A stretch of 21,006 bases of DNA from a virus, in IMG/VR virus record IMGVR_UViG_3300032265_000155, positions 1 to 21,006 of that record; one strand, given 5' to 3'. Made by a program: the position numbers and the translations under genes. Below, piece after piece: positions 1 through 20,963 of the stretch; positions within the stretch are counted from its first letter, which is position 1; every line of letters starts with the position of its first letter. The notes beneath the pieces were generated by a model. It worked only from the letters and a program-made list of their open reading frames with translations. It was not told the DNA's origin and searched no databases.

Positions 1-1205
1 GACGCGCTGATCTGGCCAGCCATATAACGACGCCGAAGATCAGCCTCAGCGATTGAAAGCTCGCGAGTGATGTCAGCGTTTTGATCCTGGCGAATCTGAC
101 TGATTTGTTGATTGTAAGATTGGACAGCAGGTGCTGCGCCTTCACCGATTGCCCCAGCAAGACTTGGGTTTCTGGATGCGGCGATGCGAAGGCCAGCTTC
201 AACAAGCGCCATCCTGCGCGCCTCGCTACGGCGCTCGCCCTCGTTGGTGCGAGAAGCCTTGATGCGGTCCAGCAATTCCTGGGGAATGCCAGGGAACAGA
301 GCAAGGTTCCTTTCCATGTTCTGCGCGATAGTGGGCAACGCGCTAGGCGCGGCTGCTGCGGGAGCGGCGCTTGGTGCCAAAGCCCTGATACCGCCAGCAG
401 CAGAACCGCTTGCTGGAGGGCCGCCAGCGGGAGGCTCCGGGGGAAGCAGCAATGTTTGGGCGGGGGCTGCTGGCGAACCGCCTTCAGTGCGTGCTGGAGG
501 GGTGGCAGCAGTGGAAGAAGGGGCTGCCGCTGGTGCTGCGGCTGGGGCGGCTGGCTGCGTCGGCGCAGCAATTGGATTATTTTTTATGTATTCTTCAGGG
601 TTATCCCACATTGCCTGCGGGTTGAAGTTTGGATTGTTAGCATTCTGAGTCACATAATCAAGATACTCGGCAGCCCTTCTACGAGTATTTGCCCCTGTGG
701 TGAACCAAGAGGGCAGGTTGGATTGGCTGCCATAATGGGACTGAAGACCCTCGACAGCAATTCTTCTGCGCTCATCGTCGCTCGGAGGCGCAACCATTCT
801 TTGCGCTACATCACCAACGCCCCTGATGATATTGCGACCGAAGGTGATGGCTGGGATTTCTCCTTCACCCTCAACCGCTTCGCCCTTAGCCATATGAACA
901 ATGCCACCCTCGCGCATCGCCTCGATGCCGGGAGCGTTCTCCTCCGTGGGATAGTCTTCATCTCCAGGCTCGGGCGTCGAGAGACTGCGAATCCCCATCG
1001 GGGCTTGCATGTTCTCTTCGCTGGTCAGGTCTTCAGCGACGGTGCTGCGCGGCTCTTGCGCCTGCTTCGCCCTCATCTCCTGGCGGCGGCGCAACTCAGA
1101 CAGCACTAGATAGGACGGAGCCGTGCTATCCGGTGAAGTTATCAGGCTCTTTAGTTGATCGTCTGATGCGTTTTTAAGGGCATCTTGAATGCTGAGAAGA
1201 TTCAT
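1..1205 (-). CDS. Large virion protein, probable internal/DNA-ejection protein (3'-truncated by window edge)
   Basis: The frame is open from an ATG at 1205 to the left edge without a stop, giving 401 visible residues; the C-terminus is outside the window. The ATG overlaps the stop of the upstream gene by 4 bases (ATGA), which fixes the start. Residues 30-45 read PSYLVLSELRRRQEMR, a pattern I know from N-termini of podovirus structural proteins. A GGIVHMAKGE segment lies at 100-109. Residues about 210-295 are an Ala/Pro-rich linker. A helical region follows (about 295-400), with MALVEAGLRIAASRNPSLAG at 332-351, which resembles the recurrent 'GL.i....P....aIGeGa' segment of such proteins. No enzymatic motif is visible. 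Position after gp13-like and 300-residue genes suggests a T7 gp15/gp16-type role in the internal core or ejectosome. The gene call is firm; the function is inference. Confidence 0.8.
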   Translation of the reverse strand, partial: MNLLSIQDALKNASDDQLKSLITSPDSTAPSYLVLSELRRRQEMRAKQAQEPRSTVAEDLTSEENMQAPMGIRSLSTPEPGDEDYPTEENAPGIEAMREGGIVHMAKGEAVEGEGEIPAITFGRNIIRGVGDVAQRMVAPPSDDERRRIAVEGLQSHYGSQSNLPSWFTTGANTRRRAAEYLDYVTQNANNPNFNPQAMWDNPEEYIKNNPIAAPTQPAAPAAAPAAAPSSTAATPPARTEGGSPAAPAQTLLLPPEPPAGGPPASGSAAGGIRALAPSAAPAAAAPSALPTIAQNMERNLALFPGIPQELLDRIKASRTNEGERRSEARRMALVEAGLRIAASRNPSLAGAIGEGAAPAVQSYNQQISQIRQDQNADITRELSIAEADLRRRYMAGQISA

Positions 1206-2104
1206 TTGTCGTTCCCATTGCCTGAAAGCAAAGCCAATCCAGACATGGCAAGACCACCATACTGGGCGATTGGGCTTGGCTGCCTAGTGGCTTGAGTTGT
1301 TGTTGTGTTTGCTTGGACCGGAACGCCGCGCATGATGTTTGACAAATATCCCACTTGATTTTTTTCAAAATCACGTTGGTCAACAAAGTTTTGGTAACCA
1401 AGGTCCAACTCTCTCTGCTTCAATTCTTGTTGAGCAGCGCCTTGGCTATTCAAGGCCTGAACCTGAGCCAAGGTCAGCCCCTGCTGCTGGGCATTGAGAG
1501 AACCCATCTGAGCGCCAGCTTGCAGGCCAAGGCTTCCGCCAGCCAGTGAGGCATTGCGGTCTGCGTTGTATTGCTGCTGGGCATTTGTGAAAGCTTGTTG
1601 GCGACCAGACGCCTCGATATCATTCAGGCGATTGCCTAATCCACGCTGTGCAACGCCCTGCTGGATAGCATCACGATAGCCGCCGAACGCACCAGCATTG
1701 ATTGCCTGTGTGTCGCGTCCCGGTTGCCCCTCACTATAATCACGCAAGGCCGCGTCTTTCTGACGCTGAATGACGCTGTTCATGTAGGGAGACATATACT
1801 GGTCAGCCTGCTGCTGACCGAATGGCTGGCTTGCCCCAAACCCCACATTCGCCGCTTGCTGCGTCATACCAACACCAGCATTAACGCCCGGTGTGCCTTG
1901 GGCCGCTAGATTCCTGGTAATATCAAACGCTTGATTTGTATCTCCAGTAAAATCAGCAATTCGCTGCTCGCCATATGGCTGATATGCTTGTTCGCTCGCA
2001 GTCTTAGCGCGAGACATGATGTTTTCAAAATATGGGCGAGCATATGCGGGAAGTTCGTTGGTTTGAGTTGACGTTGCCGTCGGTTTCATTTTGCCGCCGC
2101 TCAT
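1202..2104 (-). CDS. Gln/Ala-rich structural protein, putative internal virion (gp14-position) protein
   Basis: This 300-residue product starts with ATG at 2104, one base after the stop of the gp13-like gene. It is rich in Gln, Ala and Asn and predicted to be mostly helical. The segment YMSPYMNSVIQRQKDAALRD (about 103-122), followed shortly by NAGAFGGYRDA, is a pattern I recognise from conserved podovirus virion proteins of unknown exact role. The C-terminus has a short hydrophobic stretch, IAQYGGLAMSGLALLSG (about 279-295), long enough to insert in or lie on a membrane. In T7 the gene after gp13 encodes gp14, the small ejection protein that forms the outer-membrane channel. The position, the helical composition and the C-terminal hydrophobic stretch fit that role, but I see no sequence identity to gp14 itself. 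It could also be a generic minor virion protein. Confidence 0.8.
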   Translation of the reverse strand: MSGGKMKPTATSTQTNELPAYARPYFENIMSRAKTASEQAYQPYGEQRIADFTGDTNQAFDITRNLAAQGTPGVNAGVGMTQQAANVGFGASQPFGQQQADQYMSPYMNSVIQRQKDAALRDYSEGQPGRDTQAINAGAFGGYRDAIQQGVAQRGLGNRLNDIEASGRQQAFTNAQQQYNADRNASLAGGSLGLQAGAQMGSLNAQQQGLTLAQVQALNSQGAAQQELKQRELDLGYQNFVDQRDFEKNQVGYLSNIMRGVPVQANTTTTQATRQPSPIAQYGGLAMSGLALLSGNGNDK

Positions 2105-2105
2105 A

Positions 2106-2519
2106 TCAAATGTCCTTTTCCATCATGGTCAATCCCCATTTGATTCCATGAGACTCAAGCATCTTTACCCACCCCCTTCTACCATACGCTTCAAGCCCGC
2201 TGCATTTATTATTCCTGCCCCAGGATGAAAGGGTTTGAATTACTTCATCTCGCCACAAACGGAAATCAGTTCCGGCAAGAAACAGAACGGTCAAAAGGCG
2301 GCGAGATGGGTAATCACTGATTGAGGTTACCGCGCATCCAATAATATCTCGTTCATCATTAAAAGCAATCCAAAGCTGCATGTCTCCAAGCTTGGAGGCA
2401 GTTCTAATATCTTCAACCAAATATCTGCCATTTGTCAAAACAACGGCTGGCGCAAGAATCTTTTCAACAATATCCCATACATCATTGATATGTTTGGGAG
2501 GAACAAAGCTGATGTTCAC
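2106..2519 (-). CDS. GNAT-fold, T7 gp13-like internal virion protein
   Basis: This 137-residue product starts with GTG at 2519, and the GTG overlaps the upstream stop as GTGA, which suggests coupled translation. The layout is that of a degenerate acetyltransferase (GNAT) fold: an N-terminal helix-rich half, the strand pair MQLWIAFNDERDIIGCAVTS near 47-66, and a C-terminal segment EAYGRRGWVKMLESHGIKWG near 111-130. That last segment is the most conserved part of T7 gp13/DUF2833-type proteins as I know them. In T7, gp13 is needed for assembly of the internal core and is encoded directly after the nozzle gene gp12. Here the nozzle-like gene lies two genes upstream, with a spike and a 396-residue protein between. 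Catalytic acetyltransferase activity is not implied, since I see no clear acetyl-CoA pyrophosphate loop (Q/RxxGxG/A). The GC content is visibly lower than in neighbours. Confidence 0.78.
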   Translation of the reverse strand: MNISFVPPKHINDVWDIVEKILAPAVVLTNGRYLVEDIRTASKLGDMQLWIAFNDERDIIGCAVTSISDYPSRRLLTVLFLAGTDFRLWRDEVIQTLSSWGRNNKCSGLEAYGRRGWVKMLESHGIKWGLTMMEKDI

Positions 2520-3706
2520 AGAGTGATCTTTCCGCCAATCGATTTAGGCTGAGTCTTCTTGCCTGTCCGCTGCTTCCTGACAGCGTTCATCATCTCATGC
2601 AAACGACGAACGCCGTGATCGGTTGAGCCATCACCCAAGCCAGACACCACATCGGCGGGCACCACAAACTCGCCATCAGCAAGGCGAACCTGTTGACGGC
2701 CTTCGATTGTGCCAGGGATTAAATCATCCATGCCGCCACCAGCGCCAGTGATGCGACCGCCAGTCATTTTGTCGCGCAACATATACAAAGCATCGCGGCC
2801 AAACATGTTCTCAAACCGTTCCAAAGCTTCTCTGGGGCGGGGGTGTTCGTTAAGTAGGGCCGCCTTAGCCTCGTTCATGATGTTGGCTGTCATGCCTTCC
2901 TCGCCACGCATGGAGGCAATCCCTCCTTTGGACAACAAGAGGAGGGGAAGCATAGCAAGGGCTTCTGGACTGGCAGCAGCGGCAACTTCTGGGACAGCAG
3001 CAGCCGCCGCCTCTGGGGCGAAAGCAGCAGCCGCCTCTGGAGCAGCCGCCGCCGCTTCTGGGGCGGCAGTGGCAGCCTCTGAAGCTGAGCCAGGGCTGTT
3101 GAAAAATTGAGATGCATGTTTACCAAGCCTTGTTCCCAAATCGGAAATTTGCCTGATAAGACCGGGAGAACCTTGGGGAGCTTGAGGGCCTTTTTCTTTT
3201 TTATTAATAATTGTGGCTGGGTTGCTTTCGTAAAATTTATTTCTGGTAAGCGGGCCTTCGTCAGGATTGCTTGGCGGAACAGGAGGTAATGGCATGCCGT
3301 TAGGCGCATACGCCGGGCCTGTTGAGTTTGATTGGTTGGCAAAGTCAGCATCGGTTGCTGATGTTGCGTATGGAGAAGCGCCACCACCAACAAACATCCC
3401 CGGCTCTCCAGGCATTGCTGTTCCGGAAATCTGACCGGATGAGGTCTTGGCCATGTCTGAGTCTGGGTATGTATACGAATTGTCGCTAGGGCGGTTCAGA
3501 CGCCGCGCACCAGCAATAGCTGCGGAGAGAGCGGGTAGGGCAACGTCGCTTAAATTGAAAGCCTCTGGCAGCCCTGTGTGTGGGTTGTAAGTGAAGTCTT
3601 TGCCAGTTAGCTGGCGGATTCCCTCAAGCTCTGCCCGGCTGACATGGAGAAGGGTGTCGTCCCCATGCCGACCATAGCCTGCTAGATGGTTTACTGTGCG
3701 GTCCAT
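2516..3706 (-). CDS. Conserved phage structural protein with GRxGD N-terminus and ADGEFVVPADVVS C-terminus
   Basis: This 396-residue product starts with ATG at 3706, with AAGGA upstream. Three parts are visible. The N-terminus (about 1-55) carries YGRHGDDTLLHVSRAEL and NPHTGLPEAF, a paired motif common at the starts of phage virion proteins. A middle part (about 60-250) is disordered and Pro/Ser-rich and ends in a PEAAAAA-type low-complexity run at 207-249, then a short hydrophobic stretch LAMLPLLLLSKGGIASM (250-266). The C-terminal domain (about 316-396) contains MDDLIPGTIEGRQQVRLADG followed by EFVVPADVVSGLGDGSTD and ends Lys-rich. This C-terminal module is widespread in podoviruses with no assigned function as far as I know. 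The location between spike and gp13-like gene points to a virion or ejection role (inference). Confidence 0.82.
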   Translation of the reverse strand: MDRTVNHLAGYGRHGDDTLLHVSRAELEGIRQLTGKDFTYNPHTGLPEAFNLSDVALPALSAAIAGARRLNRPSDNSYTYPDSDMAKTSSGQISGTAMPGEPGMFVGGGASPYATSATDADFANQSNSTGPAYAPNGMPLPPVPPSNPDEGPLTRNKFYESNPATIINKKEKGPQAPQGSPGLIRQISDLGTRLGKHASQFFNSPGSASEAATAAPEAAAAAPEAAAAFAPEAAAAAVPEVAAAASPEALAMLPLLLLSKGGIASMRGEEGMTANIMNEAKAALLNEHPRPREALERFENMFGRDALYMLRDKMTGGRITGAGGGMDDLIPGTIEGRQQVRLADGEFVVPADVVSGLGDGSTDHGVRRLHEMMNAVRKQRTGKKTQPKSIGGKITL

Positions 3707-8249: not shown

Positions 8250-9239
8250 TTAGCCAGCAGCCTTCTTCTCAAGCGCGTCAACCTTCGCGCTTAATTCTTT
8301 CACGGCATTCACCAACAGGGCAATGACCCCGTTGTAGTTAAGCGACATCAGGCCAGGACCATCAGGATCATTCGCTGGCGCTTCGCTTGCAACGTCCACG
8401 GCTTCCGGCAGAACAGCAGCAACATCTTGCGCTAGAAGGCCAGCGTTGACAATTGGAGAGCCATCAATATTTGAGATGTCGTTTCTTTTGTAAGTAATGC
8501 CATTCAATTGGTTTACTTTGTTTAAAGCGCCTTCAATAATTTTTTGTTCGTCTTTAACTCTTCTGTCTGAAAGTGATATAAAGGTGTTGGGTGCGTAGCC
8601 ATTTCCGTTGTTTTCAAATCTAAAAATAACAGAGCTACTGCCAACAACAATTTGAGCGCCAGCACTCACATCTGGTTGATGGAAGTAACGCAAATATGTT
8701 TGAAATGAACCAGGAGATGATGTTAAAATTGGACTATAGTAAGTTCCGCTAGTTAAAGTAGCATTTTGCATAGTGATATTATTGTAGTTAATAAGGTTGC
8801 CAGTGATAACGGCGTCGCCATTTGAAGAATTAGTAGGTATGGTAGCACTAACAACATTGGTGCCGTCGCAATACACAAGCTGGGTGTAGCCATTGAATAG
8901 TGTTACGCCAGTGCCAGCAGATGTTTTTACTATAACGGCCTGTCCTCCAGCCGTGGCATTGCGGATGGCATAAAACTTATTGACCGATGGCACGATCAAA
9001 TTACAAGTCGCGCTAAGAGTTCCTCCAAGAACCAACACTGCATTGCGCGCATCGCCAACAACGCCAGTGCCGGTCACTATGGTGACGCTAGGGCCAGCCA
9101 TTGTGACGTTGCCAACACCGGTGATGGCCTGCTCAAGAAGAGTGCCCAGGTTGTAGTTAGTTGTGTTGCCCCAGTTGGAAGCCTGCTCACCGTTGCCGAT
9201 AAGCTCAATACCAAGGGACGGGCTGTATGTACTGGGCAT
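8250..9239 (-). CDS. Tail fibre with C-terminal Peptidase_S74 self-cleaving chaperone
   Basis: This 329-residue product starts with ATG at 9239. The N-terminus, [20 protein letters not shown] (about 7-26), is a well-known phage fibre opening (a short helix ahead of beta-rich repeats). The middle is beta-rich with Thr/Asn/Gly repeats and probably forms a trimeric shaft. From about residue 222, [14 protein letters not shown] carries the S74 Ser224/Lys229 pair. [16 protein letters not shown] and [20 protein letters not shown] follow, with a terminal coiled coil ([11 protein letters not shown]). The C-terminal chaperone should be removed after trimerisation. The mature shaft is then only about 220 residues, so this is a short fibre, perhaps a side or tip fibre beside the larger S74 spike encoded downstream. 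The DNA of the domain junction (about 8461-8760) is strikingly AT-rich. Confidence 0.9.
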
Positions 9240-9812: not shown

Positions 9813-10826
9813 TTAGCTATTCCCTATTGGTGTCCATGTTGCAGTTGTAGCAGGGATTGGTGTCCATATAGAATCCCCGCCCGTATCTACTGGCGTCCAA
9901 CCCTGCCCTGGATTGGGGATGGGCTGCCATCCACCATACCCTACCGCAACATCGGCCAGAGATATTGTATCCGAAGCTGATTTGAAAAGGATAGCAGTAT
10001 TTGTGGAGATGTCACTAAGGGCAATCAAATCACTTGCCAAGGCCAGACCAGATATCTTGCCACTGGAAGAATCGGATGTGATTAGCGTGTCTGCCGCACT
10101 GGCCGCGACGTTGAGCTTGAGGACTGAAGAATCCGACAACGACAAACTATCGGACGCTGCTTTCGCATAGGAGAGGGCAAGCGCAGAGCTATCGGATAGT
10201 GTTATCGAATCCGAAACGCTGGAGGAGTAACCGGCCCTGCATGCGGCGAGATCAGACAGGGTGAGCGTGTCAGACGCGCTTCCGGCTAGGCTGATAGCCG
10301 CAGCACCAACATCAGCCAGAGATAGGCTGTCGGAACCGCTAGCAGATAGGCTCAACTTGCCTGCTGTGGATTCCACAAAGACTATCGAGTCGGAGGCGTT
10401 GCCCAGGAAGGACGCCACGCTCACTGCGCTATCTGAGAGCGTCAACGTATCGGATGCGCTAACGCCGATAACAACGATGAAGCTTGTTGTATCTGAAAGA
10501 GTGATCGAGTCAGACGCGCTCGTTGAATAAGCCGTGCCGCCAGCAGCCAAGTCAGATAGCGTCAGGGCATCAGAGGCTGCGCTAGAGATGGCTGTGGACG
10601 CGCTAATGGCGTCGGATAGCGTGATGGTGTCGGAGGCGCTCACAGGCGCATTGAAGAAGCCTGCGGCTGATTCTGTTAGGGCAATAGAATCAGATGCTGA
10701 ACTGCTGAGGCTAATCGCATTCGCGGTGCTGTCGTTTAGTGTCAAGGCGTCGGACGCGGAACCTTGCAGGAAGGAGCCGGACTGACCGCTGAACGGCGCA
10801 CCAGAGAATGGGAAGAAGCCAAACAT
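9813..10826 (-). CDS. Tail-associated protein with fourteen exact 20-residue S-A-S-D-x-[IL]-x-L-[ST]-D repeats
   Basis: This 337-residue product starts with ATG at 10826. Residues 1-21 (MFGFFPFSGAPFSGQSG...) form a short aromatic/Pro head seen in some phage tail proteins. From 22 to about 299 there are fourteen consecutive units, with the Ser-Asp pair at residues 25, 45, 65 and so on to 285, strictly every 20 residues. The first half of each unit is conserved (SASDtltLSDsa) and the second half is variable, often with hydrophobic residues alternating with Ala/Ser. This suggests a solenoid or fibrous beta-structure with one turn per unit. The C-terminus repeats a WTPI/WQPI theme four times (residues 300-333). 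It lies between a tail-assembly-chaperone gene and a conserved virion protein, so a fibre or adhesin role is likely. Asp/Ser-rich repeats could bind cations, but no RTX GGxGxD motif is present. Confidence 0.85.
   Translation of the reverse strand: MFGFFPFSGAPFSGQSGSFLQGSASDALTLNDSTANAISLSSSASDSIALTESAAGFFNAPVSASDTITLSDAISASTAISSAASDALTLSDLAAGGTAYSTSASDSITLSDTTSFIVVIGVSASDTLTLSDSAVSVASFLGNASDSIVFVESTAGKLSLSASGSDSLSLADVGAAAISLAGSASDTLTLSDLAACRAGYSSSVSDSITLSDSSALALSYAKAASDSLSLSDSSVLKLNVAASAADTLITSDSSSGKISGLALASDLIALSDISTNTAILFKSASDTISLADVAVGYGGWQPIPNPGQGWTPVDTGGDSIWTPIPATTATWTPIGNS
9930..10763 (-). repeat. Fourteen tandem 60-base coding repeats
   Basis: The array encodes the 20-residue units of the overlying gene. 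At DNA level the most conserved part of each unit is the minus-strand stretch coding for SASD-x-[IL]-x-LSD. On the plus strand it appears as recurring variants of 'gatagcgtc' and 'gtcggacgcg'. Unit length never varies, which indicates expansion and loss by whole units under selection for frame and geometry. Confidence 0.85.
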
Positions 10827-10849: not shown

Positions 10850-11185
10850 CTATGGTGCCGTTGGCCAGACGATATTCAAAGGAAATCCTGGTTGTTCAGG
10901 AATATCACGCAACGCCTGCCGGTATACGGCAAGATCAAAGTCAAGGCCATTGCCGTCTTCCAGGGCTTTGACCACGCGCCAGTCAGTTGTGGCAAGAAGG
11001 GCGTTTCTACGCAGCCGGGCAAACGCCGCTTCCGCCTCAGTGTCGGGCGGCGCTGGCAGGAATTGCCCGTCTTGGTACAAGTCGCCAATGTTCGCGCCAT
11101 TGCCCAACACCCAATTGAGTTCAATCGGAAAATCAGCGAGCGCGATGTTGGCTACCCTGCCGTTTTCAATGATTGCGTATTTCAT
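10850..11185 (-). CDS. Tail fibre assembly chaperone (Phage_tail_APC type), copy 2
   Basis: This 111-residue product starts with ATG at 11185 after a near-perfect AAGGAGG. The N-terminal half (MKYAIIENGRVANIALADF...) resembles the fibre-contacting part of tail assembly proteins. The C-terminal half, RLRRNALLATTDWRVVKALE then LAVYRQALRDIPEQPGFPLN, matches the Phage_tail_APC pattern (R.xRN.LLa.tDW...YRQALRD.PeQ.GFP...VWP). Such proteins help fold or assemble the fibre encoded immediately upstream, here the 401-residue Gly-rich fibre. A paralogue of 127 residues lies at 12400-12783 and follows the other Gly-rich protein. The two share their C-terminal halves but not their N-terminal halves, as expected if the variable N-terminal part matches different fibres. 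Confidence 0.86.
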   Translation of the reverse strand: MKYAIIENGRVANIALADFPIELNWVLGNGANIGDLYQDGQFLPAPPDTEAEAAFARLRRNALLATTDWRVVKALEDGNGLDFDLAVYRQALRDIPEQPGFPLNIVWPTAP

Positions 11186-11199: not shown

Positions 11200-12403
11200 A
11201 CCAGCTATACACGCGGATGTAGCCGTTGCCGCCAGTGCCGCCTGCGCCACCACTGGCTACAACGGACGCACCACCACCGCCGCCGCCACCGCCAGGAAAT
11301 CCGCCAGCGCCGCCTTTATTAAGATTAGAGGTTCCGTTAGTCGTGGAACTACCACCACCGCCGCCACCTTGACCGCCGCCACCAACTCCCGCTGCGCCCG
11401 CTCCGCCAACAGTAGGAGTAGAGCCAGAAGTGCCGGCCGTGCCGCCACCTCCATTATTCAAAAGGTTTGCCCCACCGGCAGAGGCAGACAATACAGTCCC
11501 GCCACTATCAATACCACCGCCGCCACCACCACCAGCGCCGCCTTGGTAAGAACTGCCCCCAGCATAAGCACTGGCGGAATAATTAGCATTACCACCAGCG
11601 CCACCACCAAATCCACTACTTCCAGTATTGTTGTAACCGCTCTGATAAGCCCCGCCAAAGGCGGTGCCGGTAGTAGTAGATGAAAATGCTATTTTTGGAT
11701 TGTTATTACTAAATACGCCGCCGCCACAACCTCCGTTGTAAGCACTATATCCATCATAACCCTGGCCGCCATAAGCAGTTAAATACGAACCAAATGTGCT
11801 GTTTCCGCCGTCAGACCCCGGATTCCCTGATGCAAAAGAACCTTGAGAAGCGCCGCCAGCCCCGCCAGCACCGACGGTAGTAGTAACCGTTGATGGTAAT
11901 TCGCTTGCCAAAAAAAGCCGAAAAACATACGCACCACCACCACCGCCGCCGCCACCCGTGTTTATGGAGCCTATTGAAACACGGCTGCCACCATTACCGC
12001 CACCACCACCACCCCAAACCTCAACAAAAACAAACGTCGCGGTGCTGGGCTTGGTCCAAGTCCCGGAAGATGTAAACGTCTGGACGTTAGCGCCAGCAGG
12101 CGCAGAGCTTGCCCAGGTCGTGCCGTTACTAGACAAGACGTTGCCGCTCGTACCAGGAGCAACAAACTGCACAGCGCTTGTGCCGTTGCCCAGGATTACG
12201 TTGTTGGCGGTCAATGTTGCTGCGCCAGTGCCGCCAGCGGCAACAGGAAGCGTGCCCGCAGTTAGCGCGGAAGCTGACGTTGAATAAAGCGCATTGTTTG
12301 CGGCAGTTAGGGTTGCCAGCCCCGTCCCGCCATTGGCGGCACTGAGTACGCCAGCGCTGCTAGCACCAGGAGCAAGGTTGGATAGGTTGCGTGGGATGGT
12401 CAT
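11198..12403 (-). CDS. Tail fibre with repeat module and Gly-rich (polyglycine-type) tip domain
   Basis: This 401-residue product starts with ATG at 12403, overlapping the upstream stop as ATGA. Residues 1-100 hold two GGTG-based repeat modules; the second (57-99, GGTGAATLTANNVILGNGTS...) is a near copy of modules in the 467-residue fibre. From about 107 the segment FTSSGTWTKPSTATFVFVEV followed by WGGGGGG is the signature entry to the Gly-rich fibre domain. The remaining about 270 residues are runs of G/S/A/N/Y with short beta-like interruptions, ending GYIRVYSW. In T4-like S16 gp38-type adhesins, comparable Gly-rich loops form polyglycine-II sandwiches carrying receptor-contact loops; a similar receptor-binding tip is inferred here. 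Its probable chaperone is the APC gene just downstream. Confidence 0.87.
   Translation of the reverse strand: MTIPRNLSNLAPGASSAGVLSAANGGTGLATLTAANNALYSTSASALTAGTLPVAAGGTGAATLTANNVILGNGTSAVQFVAPGTSGNVLSSNGTTWASSAPAGANVQTFTSSGTWTKPSTATFVFVEVWGGGGGGNGGSRVSIGSINTGGGGGGGGAYVFRLFLASELPSTVTTTVGAGGAGGASQGSFASGNPGSDGGNSTFGSYLTAYGGQGYDGYSAYNGGCGGGVFSNNNPKIAFSSTTTGTAFGGAYQSGYNNTGSSGFGGGAGGNANYSASAYAGGSSYQGGAGGGGGGGIDSGGTVLSASAGGANLLNNGGGGTAGTSGSTPTVGGAGAAGVGGGGQGGGGGGSSTTNGTSNLNKGGAGGFPGGGGGGGGASVVASGGAGGTGGNGYIRVYSW
12107..12235 (-). repeat. Fibre repeat module, copy in the Gly-rich fibre gene
   Basis: This is one of three roughly 129-base copies that encode 43 residues starting GGTGAATLTANNVILGNGTS and ending near NGTTWAS. 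The other copies, at 14276-14404 and 14750-14878, lie in a different fibre gene. The copies are closely similar at nucleotide level, for example around the sequence coding for NNVILGNGTS. Confidence 0.8.
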
Positions 12404-12783
12404 TTAGGTGCCTCTGGCCAAACAACATTAGAAGGGAAGCCTTGTTGCTCAGGGACTTCACGCAGCGCTTGCCGGTAAGCGGCCCATGCGGCTTTGTCTA
12501 CCGGCGCGTCAGCCAATTGCGTCCAATCGCTATCAGCCAGCAAAGTGTTTCTGCGTGACCGGACGGATTCTGCGATTGCTTCTGTGCTGGGTGGTTGCGG
12601 CACAAACGGAGCAGGAGGCGGCAAGTTGACCCACACGCCATCCTGTAGAGTTGCGCCGTTGGTCGTGCCTTCTGGCACCTCAACCGTGTAGAATGCCGCC
12701 ACATCCGGGTGATAGATCAGCGTCGGATCGCCGGGTGCTACATCGCGCGCGGTGTTGGGTGGGTCTATCCAGGCGAAGGGCAT
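12400..12783 (-). CDS. Tail fibre assembly chaperone (Phage_tail_APC type), copy 1
   Basis: This 127-residue product starts with ATG at 12783, after GGAAGGA. The N-terminal half carries WIDPPNTARDVAPGDPTLIY and a Pro-rich linker, PPPAPFVPQPP (about 74-84). The C-terminal half, RSRRNTLLADSDWTQLADAP then YRQALREVPEQQGFPSNVVW, is a full match to the Phage_tail_APC consensus as I know it. It lies between the 338-residue Gly-rich protein (upstream) and the 401-residue Gly-rich fibre (downstream, overlapping by 4 bases), and most likely assists the former. It is more canonical than the second copy at 10850-11185, in which the 'LADaP' part is altered. Confidence 0.9.
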   Translation of the reverse strand: MPFAWIDPPNTARDVAPGDPTLIYHPDVAAFYTVEVPEGTTNGATLQDGVWVNLPPPAPFVPQPPSTEAIAESVRSRRNTLLADSDWTQLADAPVDKAAWAAYRQALREVPEQQGFPSNVVWPEAPK

Positions 12784-16727: not shown

Positions 16728-16994
16728 TCAGCCCATAGGACCGCGAGCCATAGTCCCCTTGGTGGCAGCGCCAGTGCCGCGAATCTTGGTTGCCTTGCGA
16801 GGATAACCATCGGTCGGGACGATAGCTTCGTCAGGAGCCTTCTGGTCGCGCGCCATCTGCTTCGGCTCAGAGACGCTGGCTTCGCCAACCGGGAATGGGA
16901 AGTTCTTGGTCGCCTTGCGCGCGGACTTCTGGTTCATGGCGCGGGCCATGTTCCGTCCATACTTAAGCATGTCTTTGCTGGTTGGGCTGCTCAT
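16728..16994 (-). CDS. Small basic protein with RGTGAATKG C-terminus (function unknown)
   Basis: This 88-residue product starts with ATG at 16994, with AGGAG about 6 bases upstream. It is rich in Lys, Arg, Ala and Met, with no hydrophobic core evident, so it is probably disordered or nucleic-acid associated. The C-terminus KIRGTGAATKGTMARGPMG recalls, but does not match exactly, the basic tag that ends four proteins at 18472-20445 (G-x-G-x-x-x-K-G-x-x-x-x-G). I know similar short 'RGTGAAtkG...G' endings from podovirus genomes next to adaptor genes. It lies between the zinc-ribbon and the second adaptor gene. No function can be assigned. Confidence 0.78.
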   Translation of the reverse strand: MSSPTSKDMLKYGRNMARAMNQKSARKATKNFPFPVGEASVSEPKQMARDQKAPDEAIVPTDGYPRKATKIRGTGAATKGTMARGPMG

Positions 16995-17003
16995 CTAAAT
17001 CTC

Positions 17004-17318
17004 CTATGGGGTATATACGTTAATAATACCAGCGTTGCCATTCATGGTGGTAGCAGAATTACCAACAGGATTCCAGCCAGGAAGACTGCGACCGGGATTG
17101 ATATCTGGTCTAGGCTCAAGCAGGGCAACCGGATCATTGATCGGCGTTTTGCCCAACTGATACTGAGGATGATCTACGTCATTGCATTCATCGCAAACCT
17201 TCAGCCCGGTCGGCTTCTGGTTGACAACCTGATAGGTCAATTCGCTCAAGTCATATCGCTGATAACAACGATCACAAAAAGCATAAGCTTTATTGCCCCG
17301 TGCAAACTTAGCTGTCAC
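17004..17318 (-). CDS. Small zinc-ribbon protein of podovirus structural clusters
   Basis: I place the start at GTG 17318, where GTGA overlaps the upstream stop by 4 bases, giving 104 residues. A TTG at 17333 in the same frame would add five residues with a 19-base overlap and is an alternative. Two CxxC pairs are present, CDRC (15-18) and CDEC (42-45), separated by 23 residues, a typical zinc-ribbon spacing. Downstream lie DHPQYQLGKTPINDP and EPRPDINPGR, a signature I recognise in small proteins beside adaptor genes of podoviruses. The C-terminal about 25 residues are Gly/Asn-rich and probably flexible. A role in tail assembly is inferred from context; transcription-related functions are equally possible for a ribbon of this type. 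Confidence 0.82.
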   Translation of the reverse strand: MTAKFARGNKAYAFCDRCYQRYDLSELTYQVVNQKPTGLKVCDECNDVDHPQYQLGKTPINDPVALLEPRPDINPGRSLPGWNPVGNSATTMNGNAGIINVYTP

Positions 17319-17989
17319 GGATAGGACATCCAAGGCACGAAGCGGGCAGGCTCTCTACCACGGTCTTCATCGGCCGCTAGCTGGAATTGCTCCATGTACT
17401 CTGCCTTCAACATAGGAACCCGTGCAGCGGCTTCTGGACGCTTCATGGCCAGTTGGAAGGCTAGACCAGACACCAGGGCGGGGACGAACCTGACGGGCAT
17501 ATCCATCACGTCAGTCGCGTTGGTGGCGTCCTGAATGCGGCGCATGGTCCAGTAGATGATCGTGTAGGGCAGATCAGGAACGGGCCAGAGGGTGTAGGTC
17601 GGATTGACCTGACGATCCACATATATTTGGAGAGGACGGCCTGTGCTGTTCTTGTTGGGCAATGTGGCATAGTCACCAACGCCAATCCGGGACACCGTAT
17701 AATCCAACGGCGTACCGTTGCTATTCACGCGAATGATTGTCTCGATGATATCGATGGTGTCAGCCGGAAGCGTGTAGGTCTTGGTGCCGGGCGTCAAAAC
17801 CAAGCTGTTCTCTTGAACGGTCCAGAGATTCAATCCTCTGTTAGACCATTCAGCGGACAAGATGTTCAGAGAGCGACGGGCAGTGCGGTAGTCATAGCCA
17901 GTGCGTGCTTCAAGGCCAGCGCGTTCATACGCCTCCTCAATCGCGTCAGCAATGTCTAAGTTCCAAACCGCAGTGCCGGAAGTTGTCAT
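17315..17989 (-). CDS. Tail adaptor / head-tail connector, SU10-adaptor-like (copy 1)
   Basis: This 224-residue product starts with ATG at 17989, directly after the TAA of the 59-residue gene. Conserved stretches are DIADAIEEAYERAGLEARTG (about 12-31), RTARRSLNILSAEWSNRGLN, TYTLPADTIDIIETIIRVNS, TGRPLQIYVDRQVNPTYTLW and YTIIYWTMRRIQDA, ending EDRGREPARFVPWMSYP. This is a familiar podovirus protein related to the phiSU10 adaptor, thought to form the ring below the portal. The neighbouring 211-residue protein is also adaptor-like. The pair could form successive rings, or one could be a specialised neck protein. The order before the nozzle gene agrees with T7 gp11-gp12. Confidence 0.88.
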   Translation of the reverse strand: MTTSGTAVWNLDIADAIEEAYERAGLEARTGYDYRTARRSLNILSAEWSNRGLNLWTVQENSLVLTPGTKTYTLPADTIDIIETIIRVNSNGTPLDYTVSRIGVGDYATLPNKNSTGRPLQIYVDRQVNPTYTLWPVPDLPYTIIYWTMRRIQDATNATDVMDMPVRFVPALVSGLAFQLAMKRPEAAARVPMLKAEYMEQFQLAADEDRGREPARFVPWMSYP

Positions 17990-18169: not shown

Positions 18170-18475
18170 TTACTTAACCTTCTTCATGGCATTGATGCGG
18201 GCAAACAGACCAACCTTCTTATCCCCGGAAGCCTTGGCAATCCTAGACGCCGCAGTTTTCTGCGCGGGCGTCATGGTCTTGGACTCCATGTTAGCCGGTC
18301 TAGGACGCTCGTAGAGAGGCTTCTCAGCCTTGCCGCCAGCCTTCATGTGGGCAGCCTCAGAGAGGGCAATAGCAACCGCCTGTTTGCGGTTCTTGACCTC
18401 ATCGCCGCTAGAAGATTTGAGGGAGCCTTCCTTAAACTCCTTCATGACCTTCTCAATCTTCTCTGGCTTCTTCAC
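18170..18475 (-). CDS. DUF6496 family protein
   Basis: I place the start at GTG 18475, which forms a 4-base GTGA overlap with the upstream stop and gives 101 residues (MKKPEKIEKVMKEFKEGSLK...). An in-frame TTG at 18511 would add 12 residues with a longer overlap. Residues about 8-40 (VMKEFKEGSLKSSSGDEVKN then RKQAVAIALSEA) are the hallmark of DUF6496, a short helical domain of phages and bacteria with unknown function. The remainder is Lys-rich: MKAGGKAEKPLYERPRP, then a basic helix ending INAMKKVK. No enzymatic residues are evident. The protein stands between the tag-bearing block and the basic 59-residue gene. Confidence 0.87.
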   Translation of the reverse strand: MKKPEKIEKVMKEFKEGSLKSSSGDEVKNRKQAVAIALSEAAHMKAGGKAEKPLYERPRPANMESKTMTPAQKTAASRIAKASGDKKVGLFARINAMKKVK

Positions 18476-18834
18476 ACCATGCGACCCTTGGTTTTGCCAG
18501 TCATGGCGCAACCATCGCCACGGCCAGACTTTACAGCACCACCCTTGGCCATCTTCTTCATTTTGATAAGGCCGCCCTTGGCATTGCCGGGACTGCCCTG
18601 TTCATATGAGGTTTGCTGCTCGGCGGGGGCGGCTGGGGCGGGAGCGGGAGCAGGCGCACTTGCTGCTTCAGTTGCAGCCGCAGCAGGATCGGCTTTCGGC
18701 GGCTGGAAATACATATGCTCAGGGCTAATGCCCGGCCTATAGCCAGCTTCAGGCGAAGTGTAAACAAGCTTAGGGGTTCCGGTAGAACCACCATCGGCAT
18801 AACGCTTTGGCTTACGAGCCTTCATCATAGCCAT
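18472..18834 (-). CDS. Low-complexity small protein with basic C-terminal tag (tag protein 4)
   Basis: This 120-residue product starts with ATG at 18834, overlapping the previous stop as TAATG. The N-terminus, MAMMKARKPKRYADGGSTGT, is basic and Gly-rich. Residues 26-45 (YTSPEAGYRPGISPEHMYFQ) are followed by an Ala/Pro run (ATEAASAPAPAPAPAAPAEQ, about 55-74). The C-terminus, MAKGGAVKSGRGDGCAMTGK followed by TKGRMV, is the conserved tag shared with three neighbours. There is no fold or enzyme signature, and most of the chain is likely disordered. I do not recognise a function. It may be a small virion component or an assembly cofactor (inference only). Confidence 0.75.
   Translation of the reverse strand: MAMMKARKPKRYADGGSTGTPKLVYTSPEAGYRPGISPEHMYFQPPKADPAAAATEAASAPAPAPAPAAPAEQQTSYEQGSPGNAKGGLIKMKKMAKGGAVKSGRGDGCAMTGKTKGRMV
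18475..18552 (-). repeat. C-terminal tag sequence, copy in the 120-residue gene
   Basis: It codes for the last 26 residues (MAKGGAVKSGRGDGCAMTGK, then TKGRMV). Together with the copy at 19148-19234 it forms the 'GCxxxG[KR]TKGRMV' subtype, with a conserved Asp-Gly-Cys. Confidence 0.7.
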
Positions 18835-19145
18835 TAGACAAACTTTCCTTTGGTTTTGCCTTTGGATTCAATCCCGCTGCCGCGAATTGCACCACCAGAC
18901 TTCAGGCGCTGACGGCTTTGGTCGCTCATGGGAACCATGCGATAGCCGCCATGGCTCATATCTGGGCCGGGGTATGTGGGCAAAATACGTTCTTCAGGTA
19001 TCCCGCGAGGAAGCCTGGGGAAGGGCATGTTGACGGGAGGGGATTTGCGAGAACCAGACCGCTTCTCACTCGCATCCTCCCTGTCATCTTCCATCTCACC
19101 GCCTTTGGCGTAACCTTTTGCGCCACAGGACTTCATCTTTGCCAT
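18834..19145 (-). CDS. Small basic Pro-rich protein with C-terminal tag (tag protein 3)
   Basis: This 103-residue product starts with ATG at 19145, overlapping the previous stop as TGATG. It opens MAKMKSCGAKGYAKGGEMED, with one Cys and a KGG motif, and then has a charged segment (DDREDASEKRSGSRKS, about 20-35). A Pro/Arg-rich stretch (NMPFPRLPRGIPEERILPTY, about 39-58) and HGGYRMVPMSDQSRQRLKSG lead to the tag [20 protein letters not shown] at 84-103. The tag is the 'IE[ST]KGKTKGKF[VI]' subtype shared with the 118-residue gene. No known domain is visible. Confidence 0.75.
   Translation of the reverse strand: MAKMKSCGAKGYAKGGEMEDDREDASEKRSGSRKSPPVNMPFPRLPRGIPEERILPTYPGPDMSHGGYRMVPMSDQSRQRLKSGGAIRGSGIESKGKTKGKFV
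18837..18896 (-). repeat. C-terminal tag sequence, copy in the 103-residue gene
   Basis: It codes for the last 20 residues ([20 protein letters not shown]). It lacks the Asp-Gly-Cys of the other subtype. Confidence 0.7.
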
Positions 19146-20092
19146 CAGACCATGCGCCCTTTGGTTCTGCCCTTGGTCACGCAGCCATCGCTGCGGCCAG
19201 AAGCCGAAGACTTAACGACGCCGCCCTTGGCCATCTTCTTAACCGGGCCGCCCTTCTTCATGGCTTCCAGTTCGCGTTGACGCTCTTGGTCCGCGCGACG
19301 GGCAATGATGTTACGAGCAGCCTCACCACGAACGCCACGCATCTCAGCAATGCCAGACTCGGGGTCAAGAGTAAGGCCCTGAATGTTATGCAGTTCATCT
19401 GAAGTTAGTTCGCGTGGAGACATGCGCGTGGCGGGGCGCGTAGCTTGACGAGCCTGAGTGCGGGCTTGCGCTTCACGCCTAACCTCTGCCGCAGAGGCGG
19501 GTGCGCCGCCTCCGTAATTTTCAGCAGCACCAGCAGCGGCGTCAGATGCGCGCTGTGCTTCATGCTCAGCCAACATCCGCCGACCCTCTGGAGTGTCGGT
19601 CAATTGAGCGCGAGCAACAGGCGTTGCGCCGGCTCCAAGGCCAAGTGCGCCAAGACCGCGAGCGGCAATGCGTCCAGCAACAGAGGTGGCCGTGGATGCG
19701 GCGCTACGGAGGTTAATGGGGATGCGGTTGTCAACCGTCGCAAGGGCGCGGCCAGGACCACCGCCGGGCACGGGAGGGCGATTGCCATCGGGAACCACTG
19801 CGCGGCCACCACCACCGCCGTTGCCGGAACCACCGCCTTGAATGGCAGGCAAAGTTTCCCGACGAACGGTTGGCGCGGGTTCTGCGGGAGCAGCCGCAGC
19901 CTGCGCTGCGCGAGCGCTGGCAGTCGAGGGAGGGCCAGCAGCGGCTTGCGCGGCGCGAGCAGAGCTGGTGGAGGGAGGGCCAGCGGCGGCTTGGGCTGCT
20001 CTTGCCCGCGCAGCATCCCTGGCTTCCCGCCTAGCGATGCCCTCTTCTATGCGGCGGCGCGCGGCATCAGCCGGGTCTTCTGGAATAGGCAT
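19145..20092 (-). CDS. Ala/Arg-rich low-complexity protein with 15-residue repeats and C-terminal tag (tag protein 2)
   Basis: This 315-residue product starts with ATG at 20092, overlapping the previous stop as TGATG. Residues 1-30 are helical and charged (ADAARRRIEEGIARREARDA). Residues about 30-69 hold three copies of a 15-residue Ala-rich repeat (SARAAQAAAGPPST). Residues 86-120 are Gly/Pro-rich. The middle (about 130-165) is IPINLRSAASTATSVAGRIA followed by ARGLGALGLGAGATPVARA, possibly amphipathic. The region 190-290 is Ala/Arg/Glu helical (EVRREAQARTQARQATRPAT). The C-terminus (287-315), MAKGGVVKSSASGRSDGCVT then KGRTKGRMV, is the shared tag. I cannot assign a function. The composition suggests a disordered, nucleic-acid- or capsid-associated protein. 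Confidence 0.72.
   Translation of the reverse strand: MPIPEDPADAARRRIEEGIARREARDAARARAAQAAAGPPSTSSARAAQAAAGPPSTASARAAQAAAAPAEPAPTVRRETLPAIQGGGSGNGGGGGRAVVPDGNRPPVPGGGPGRALATVDNRIPINLRSAASTATSVAGRIAARGLGALGLGAGATPVARAQLTDTPEGRRMLAEHEAQRASDAAAGAAENYGGGAPASAAEVRREAQARTQARQATRPATRMSPRELTSDELHNIQGLTLDPESGIAEMRGVRGEAARNIIARRADQERQRELEAMKKGGPVKKMAKGGVVKSSASGRSDGCVTKGRTKGRMV
19148..19234 (-). repeat. C-terminal tag sequence, copy in the 315-residue gene
   Basis: It codes for the last 29 residues (MAKGGVVKSSASGRSDGCVT, then KGRTKGRMV). It shares MAKGGxVKS, the Asp-Gly-Cys and [KR]TKGRMV with the copy at 18475-18552. Confidence 0.7.
19886..20005 (-). repeat. Three tandem 45-base coding repeats
   Basis: They encode successive units of about 15 residues (consensus SARAAQAAAGPPST), with Arg at 31, 46 and 61 of the 315-residue protein. 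The third unit is degenerate after AAQAAAA. The repeats probably arose by slippage and show up as a GC-rich patch. Confidence 0.7.
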
Positions 20093-20445
20093 CAGATAAA
20101 CTTCCCTTTGGTCTTGCCTTTGGTTTCAATGCCACCACCAGTGGCCATCTTAGTCATGCCACCCTTCTTCAGCCCCTTCATGGACTGCTGGGCATCATGC
20201 TTTTTATCGGCAGCAGACTTCTCCCAAGCCGCAAGGGATTCACCGCGCTTGGCGGCGAGCTTCTTGTCTTGCTGCAAATCCTTCTTGGAGGCTTCCCACT
20301 CTTTCTCAGGAACTTTGCCGCCCTTAGCCATGCCGCCCGGACGAATAGCACGCGCACCAAAGCGCGGCATACCAGCACCAGCGGACGGCATCTCAGGCGT
20401 CATCTTTGCGGGCATCTTCATACCCTTGGGCTTCTTCATTTCCAT
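20092..20445 (-). CDS. Small Lys/Met-rich protein with C-terminal tag (tag protein 1)
   Basis: I place the start at ATG 20445, with GGAG 7 bases upstream, giving 117 residues; a GTG one codon earlier (20448) is equally in frame. The N-terminus is Met/Lys/Pro-rich ([20 protein letters not shown]), then [21 protein letters not shown] charged helical segment follows ([20 protein letters not shown], about 47-66, then [20 protein letters not shown]). The end is [18 protein letters not shown]. The protein looks intrinsically disordered except for the central helix. The start overlaps the endolysin stop by one base (TGATG), so the two may be co-translated. Function unknown. Confidence 0.78.
20095..20148 (-). 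repeat. C-terminal tag sequence, copy in the 117-residue gene
   Basis: It codes for the last 18 residues ([18 protein letters not shown]). It is the 'IE[ST]KGKTKGKF[VI]' subtype, like the copy at 18837-18896. Confidence 0.7.
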
Positions 20446-20963
20446 CACTTATCTCCAATCATATCAAATGCTTTGGCTTCGCATTCATCCGTGCGGCGCA
20501 GCCAACCCTTGCCAAAACGATCAAATGTTTCGAGCGTCTTATAGAAGTTCCGTCTCTCGGTGGAGAAGCGAATAACAAGATCGCGGGGCAGAATGCCTTT
20601 GGTCAAGGCAATGGTCTTTGCGCCAATAGCGCCATCGACGTTTGCCCCAACGCAACGCTGAAGCATTCTGGAGGAGCGACCGACGCCACCATTAACGGCC
20701 ATGTCAAACACCACCATATCGACACCAACGTCGAGATCATCGCAACTTGCATTACCCCAGTAACGGGTTTTATACAAGTCAATTAGGTGTTCGTCAGGAA
20801 TATTGCGAAGCTCGTCTTTGCTGGGCAAGCGACCAAGATAGACTTTGTAAGTTAAAAGCGTAACGCCTTTCATGGTAGCGCCACCAGGATCGTGCGGGTC
20901 GTCAGACCAGCCGCCTTCGTGCTTCAGAACAAAGTCCAAGCAGGATTCGAAGTTTTCTTTCAC
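20445..20963 (-). CDS. Endolysin: GH108 N-acetylmuramidase with PG_binding_3 domain
   Basis: This 172-residue product starts with GTG at 20963, which overlaps the previous stop as GTGA. Residues 11-35 ([20 protein letters not shown], then MKGVT) are the GH108 signature, with Glu16 of HEGG as the expected catalytic acid. [17 protein letters not shown] (64-80) and [17 protein letters not shown] (87-103) complete the domain. From about 104, [18 protein letters not shown] and the helix to residue 172 match PG_binding_3. The enzyme should cleave the glycan strand of peptidoglycan to release phage particles. No signal peptide or transmembrane segment is visible, so export through a holin is expected. 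The full length agrees with the family (about 165-185). A virion-borne lysin role is possible, since it lies among structural genes. Confidence 0.93.

Follow-up and report, generated by a model that had tools for sequence, protein, structure and literature searches.

The question raised by this locus is what a short basic peptide does at the C-terminus of four consecutive genes whose products otherwise fall into four different clusters. The window analysed here is the whole of a 21,006-base virus record (IMGVR_UViG_3300032265_000155), probably a fragment of a phage genome, and represents a piece of a Pag-Yong1/DSL-LC04-like podovirus; the fragment is without a capsid gene and carries an SU10-type adaptor. 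Its minus strand reads from an endolysin through the four tagged genes and a DUF6496-like gene to the SU10-type head-to-tail adaptor and the tail genes, with the tagged block placed in the head module and flanked by the endolysin on one side and by the DUF6496-like and adaptor genes on the other. All four stop/start junctions of the tagged genes overlap (TGATG, TGATG, TAATG and GTGA), and the DUF6496-like gene probably starts, judging from the sequence, at the GTG overlapping the stop of gene 4 and not at the TTG from which it was called. No RNA family was found in the window. The features are given below with the tag subtype, A (DGCA) or E (GGCE), and the cluster of each tag-free body:

20445..20963, minus strand: GH108 endolysin, upstream of the tagged block (Pfam PF05838, E 8.5e-25)
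20092..20448, minus strand: tagged gene 1, 118 aa from the GTG at 20448 (117 aa from the ATG at 20445), cluster C0
20095..20154, minus strand: tag of gene 1, its last 20 codons, E subtype
19145..20092, minus strand: tagged gene 2, 315 aa, cluster C9, C-terminal ending DGCVTKGRTKGRMV
19148..19207, minus strand: tag of gene 2, A subtype, GRT variant
18834..19145, minus strand: tagged gene 3, 103 aa, cluster C32
18837..18896, minus strand: tag of gene 3, E subtype
18472..18834, minus strand: tagged gene 4, 120 aa, cluster C8, C-terminal ending DGCAMTGKTKGRMV
18475..18534, minus strand: tag of gene 4, A subtype
18170..18511, minus strand: DUF6496-like gene, untagged (Pfam PF20106, E 1.5e-9), called from TTG
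17315..17989, minus strand: SU10-type head-to-tail adaptor, the clade marker (Pfam PF24175, E 4.5e-16)

Elsewhere on the minus strand, a 337-aa protein (9813-10826) is composed of numerous degenerate repeats, each some 20 residues long (SASDxITLSDxA), and two separate tail-region proteins (10850-11185 and 12400-12783) have a common ending, ALR[DE][IV]PEQ.GFP.N[IV]VWP.AP, that looks like an ordinary duplicated tail-fibre-associated domain.

The original prediction, that four ORFs carry a common basic C-terminal tag, was borne out on the minus strand, and the K/T-G-G segment that it had placed ahead of the tag was recovered as a GG element before each of the four. When the last 15 residues of all 87 mechanically called window ORFs of at least 60 aa were compared with BLOSUM62, the six tag-tag pairs scored 39-68, against 20 for the best other pair, and 200 shuffles reached a maximum of 38 (mean maximum, 21). 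The tag comprises 20 basic, glycine-rich residues with the consensus [SG]xS[KR]R[AG]DG[CIV]Ax[RK]GKT[KR]G[RK][MF][VI] and a variant in which GG[CIV]E replaces DG[CIV]A. Counting back from the C-terminus, G-13 is invariant in 233 distinct tags, though their selection did not require it.

Searches of viral contigs place the peptide predominantly at the end of the protein. A DNA pattern for G[KR]TKG[RS]MV, from which the stop codon was left out, was run over 2.9 million viral contigs and matched in at least 120, with 134 of 134 listed matches lying directly before a stop codon; in loci fetched by their adaptor protein and not by the tag (at least 80), all 136 relaxed matches were also terminal. 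A profile of the last 20 residues found at least 510 ORFs, 390 of 510 matches being exactly terminal, and amounts to at least about 400 terminal tags in 184 contigs, at one to four and rarely five per contig, counts to be read as minima from a non-random sample. The core [DGN]GxxxxG[KRH]T occurs in 408 copies no more than 6 residues from the C-terminus, compared with 0.1 expected from shuffled proteins, in loci that were partly selected by the tag. About 88 of the 510 profile matches are not at the end, most of them being followed by 5-31 further residues, frequently ...KMxxGGKxC; a family of 59-69 aa with the motif at the N-terminus accounts for about a dozen. A free carboxyl end is usual and not absolute, and the profile search that had been suggested as a possible refutation, by finding the motif internally or in one protein family, instead returned mostly terminal tags on varied bodies. 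A tblastn query of the tag alone against phage records gave no matches, presumably because it is short and low in complexity, and this is not evidence of absence.

The ORFs of the 59-69 aa family, in L041, L051, L056, L059, L100 and L122, carry the tag core near the N-terminus (MAYKxxADGIAKKGKTxG...) and end in MGRNMARxxNQK, a stretch also found in an 88-aa protein of the window (16728-16994, minus strand). This 88-aa protein contains YGRNMARAMNQK and ends in KIRGTGAATKGTMARGPMG, a basic, glycine-rich ending that differs from the tag, resembles its core (xGxAxxKG) and is kept in the homologues of L131 and L128.

The tag marks one clade, the Pag-Yong1/DSL-LC04-like podoviruses of lakes and the ocean. 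An SU10-type adaptor was present in 51 of 53 distinct contigs selected by the tag only, a proportion that holds for these contigs, and 37 of 47 contigs had a Pag-Yong1-like major capsid protein (MCP), with 69-75% identity when short end fragments are set aside; from the remaining 10, all incomplete records, the capsid gene may simply be missing. The capsid protein of the clade matches Phage_capsid_4. The adaptor lies downstream of the tag in 99% of cases, the median distance being 889 bases, and neighbouring tagged pairs share a strand in 237 of 237 instances, with a median gap of -1. Among adaptor-selected relatives with enough upstream sequence, a tag was found in 49 of 54; it was found neither in the remaining five nor in DSL-LC04. 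A search of 84,980 species genomes with the tag pattern matched a single one, a metagenome bin, making spread through prophages unlikely.

Pag-Yong1 is a cultured phage that carries the tag. GenBank records of equal length for Pag-Yong1, MinM2 and Pra-JY27 place the tagged protein UMO75986.1, to which the C-terminus of window gene 2 is a weak match, between the minor capsid and adaptor genes. The records OL906435, OQ594354 and PP438419 give different cyanobacterial hosts, are all 65,014 bp long and have an identical tagged gene; perhaps they are one phage or a shared contaminant. In the untagged relative DSL-LC04, hypA (L203 8398-8649) ends in KKKTKIY and hypB (8659-9003) in SKKTRIC, possibly a different shared ending of its own.

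What precedes the tag is highly varied. Removal of the tag left 340 unique bodies in 145 BLAST clusters, a number that depends on the threshold of E < 1e-5. One of the tagged bodies is DUF6321 (PF19846, phrog_727), a small protein found in 530 phage records and common in cyanophages and pelagiphages, which is untagged in Pelagibacter phage HTVC115P and the cyanophages examined, where it ends in ...INKSLRAWNC or close to it, and which carries the tag in 19 viral contigs, 16 of the A type and three of the E type. A DUF6321-like gene between cement and adaptor is tagged in L121, while the same place in L172, L131, L161, L128 and L014 is occupied by an untagged DUF6321-like ORF of 84-89 aa. The C0 and C32 bodies each occur with both subtypes (window gene 3 is of the E subtype and a related body in L127 bears the A subtype), and the C6 body occurs without a tag in DSL-LC04. 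As the same body can be untagged, A-tagged or E-tagged, the tag is a separable module, and the claim of a portable, exactly C-terminal tag on varied bodies holds across the 145 clusters.

The subtype is usually that of the body, with clear exchanges: tag identity is 0.71 on the same body in different contigs, 0.61 on different bodies in one contig and 0.58 otherwise. The alternation of subtypes noted in the window is real there and does not extend to a general pattern, with E-A-E-A found in only three of 76 contigs with three or more tags, where the commonest orders are A-A-A and E-A-A. Duplication of a two-gene unit, offered as the origin of the alternation, was rejected on this rarity and because each of the window's four bodies belongs to a cluster of its own.

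The bodies are hydrophilic, poor in aromatic residues, for the most part of low complexity and probably disordered, with a strongly hydrophobic stretch in only 2%. Searches of the tagged proteins against Pfam, PHROGs and NCBIfam returned almost only families of unknown function, the exceptions being scattered weak matches such as that of one tagged protein to a head scaffolding PHROG, and sequence searches of the PDB gave no useful match. In AlphaFold models, which were of low confidence, the 118-aa protein took on no fold and the tag on DUF6321 was disordered. P-SCSP1u, which is closely related to a phage with DUF6321, is the subject of a cryo-EM paper that has nothing on that protein. A second short element, of the type MKKxKRFxxGG, opens 22 of the 145 representative bodies, and elements resembling KKMAKGGxV are repeated within tagged bodies; these elements are possibly a second docking motif.

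The original prediction had further proposed that the tag targets proteins to the capsid, the tail or packaged DNA. It is synteny that speaks for a structural role, with the tagged genes placed between MCP/cement on one side and the adaptor on the other; from the same gene order we infer that the tagged proteins are present in the virion, while the target among the three, the binding partner and the recruiting function of the tag are putative. The reading we prefer, at about an even chance, is that of a portable docking tag by which hypervariable accessory proteins, disordered for the most part, would be carried into the head or onto its surface. Each phage of the clade would make one to four, rarely five, such small proteins from overlapping genes of the head module, and the common C-terminal peptide would recruit their fast-changing bodies to a conserved partner in the assembling head, which may be the portal, the shell or packaged DNA. 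In favour of docking count the constant terminal peptide on variable, rapidly exchanged bodies, the free synonymous variation, the overlapping genes of the head module, the tag that AlphaFold left disordered by itself, and the precedent of T4 described below. Within one phage, moreover, unrelated bodies have matching residues at -17, -15 and -10 more often than by chance (z of 6.0, 8.1 and 9.4, respectively), as expected for a phage-specific partner and likewise counted in favour of docking, although this covariation could also come from gene conversion, given that codon identity is mildly raised (0.48 within versus 0.41 between contigs). Against docking stand the subterminal or N-terminal motif of some relatives, the relatives mentioned above that have no tag, and the existence of a known ejection-protein module elsewhere: phage SU10 has ejection proteins gp20-24 and a needle, gp18 (PMC9509320), whose counterparts would lie, by position, near 3-3706 of the window, outside the tagged block.

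A more specific proposal, which we hold tentatively as a possibility well short of likely, is one of modular delivery, wherein a universal C-terminal loading tag with built-in ribosome-binding codons would let the family swap packaged, possibly anti-defence, plug-in cassettes, and the phage-specific tag positions would match a phage-specific receptor in the head. The tag could instead fix the variable disordered bodies to the outer face of the shell or neck, where they would be a decoration that alters adhesion or stability. The position of the tagged genes directly after the cement/minor capsid gene and the hydrophilic, aromatic-poor bodies suit such an anchor, but a strongly basic tag would suit DNA or the head interior at least equally and nothing puts the proteins outside, leaving this explanation unlikely.

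We regard as more doubtful a DNA-binding tail, a lysine/arginine- and glycine-rich peptide that would bind DNA, packaged or replicating, with no particular protein as its partner. Lysine and arginine swap freely at positions -9, -5 and -3 and mostly at -7, and charge is therefore what is kept at these sites; however, the invariant G-13, G-8 and T-6 and the nearly invariant G-4 and D/G-14 are not needed for charge, and the last two residues are hydrophobic.

The end of the tag also appears to have a role in translation. A possible downstream start lies within about 10 bases of the stop in 289 of 328 distinct tagged genes, start calls being mechanical; at codon -4, GGA or GGG is used in 164 of 277 cases compared with 8 of 289 at codon -8, and Arg -3 is AGG, CGG or AGA in 139 of 194. 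From this proximity and codon bias, the last codons of the tag look like a ribosome-binding site for the gene that follows and overlaps. The contrast between coupled and uncoupled genes gave p = 0.06 and 0.13, with an uncoupled class of only 12 genes, too small for significance. That the whole ending is kept for the sake of the next gene's ribosome-binding site and overlap, with a functionless peptide as by-product, is nevertheless very unlikely: it would account for codons -5 to -3 only, whereas the conserved peptide extends to -16 with synonymous freedom (GKTKGRMV is spelled in 108 ways at the DNA level across 136 distinct tag sequences, and G-13 and T-6 each make use of all four codons), and the few uncoupled genes retain the peptide. 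The tag is conserved as protein while its synonymous sites vary. For the docking tag, codons that would serve as the ribosome-binding site of the next gene would make body plus tag an exchangeable unit.

Exchange of bodies is itself suggested by comparison of related genomes. In contig pairs whose adaptors are 50-70% identical, sharing amounts to 5% for tagged-body families versus 50% for untagged neighbouring genes, a contrast that is partly the result of fast divergence and method, because the low complexity and disorder of the bodies lower BLAST sensitivity and single linkage raises sharing among the controls; with adaptors 85-95% identical, the values are 66% and 76%. Between the window and L123, whose adaptor proteins are near-identical, DNA similarity is 86-93% at the tags and 97% in the downstream flank, and the body of gene 3 belongs to C32 in the window and to C19 in L123, which suggests a body replacement between the two. 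Similar tags beside differing bodies are also what would be seen if the tag DNA were a homology block admitting new bodies and the peptide had no function, but the many DNAs that encode the peptide across the clade are the opposite of a homology block, and we consider this highly improbable. Least probable of all is a degradation tag delivering the proteins to a host protease, which would fit the exact C-terminal position and the basic stretch with a hydrophobic end (the MuA C-terminus, which ClpX recognises, is of the same character), but not the subterminal variants without a free end, a motif longer and more glycine/threonine-specific than known C-degrons, or genes located in the head module.

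No published description of the tag was found in the open-access literature under the peptide, DUF6321, Pag-Yong1 or wording for such a tag, and the docking tag looks to be undescribed. If it loads the particle, its 20 residues would be a handle by which accessory virion proteins could be recognised from sequence alone throughout a widespread clade of uncultivated phages, and would allow one to ask which bodies get swapped in answer to host defences.

Residues G-13 to T-6 fit the Walker A pattern GxxxxGK[ST], a likeness that we take to be a coincidence: some tags have arginine or histidine for the lysine (the 315-aa protein has GRT), no more than five residues follow the motif and there is no match to an NTPase family. 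Another parallel is provided by the cargo-loading peptides of encapsulins, cellular compartments with a shell of HK97 fold, which are C-terminal and common to unrelated cargo proteins. The tag, too, is a C-terminal peptide on unrelated proteins, and an HK97 fold is expected for the capsid protein of this phage; the peptide sequence differs, the encapsulin is a compartment of the cell, and binding to the inner face of the shell is putative here. The closest precedent comes from phage T4: its internal proteins IPI, IPII and IPIII, which are packaged in the head and injected, have a common N-terminal capsid-targeting sequence, whereas their mature parts diverge and give way to others in related phages (PMC9026906). 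Both systems place a short constant terminal peptide on several small, divergent, replaceable proteins per phage, those of T4 being late head proteins. The T4 sequence, unrelated to the tag, is N-terminal, 10 residues long and cut off by the gp21 protease, while the tag is C-terminal and 20 residues long, and packaging of its proteins is putative; no protease was identified in the window fragment, and Pfam did not resolve the head genes of its relatives in this respect. If the docking reading is true, the tag would represent a second, independent solution to the problem solved by the T4 capsid-targeting sequence.
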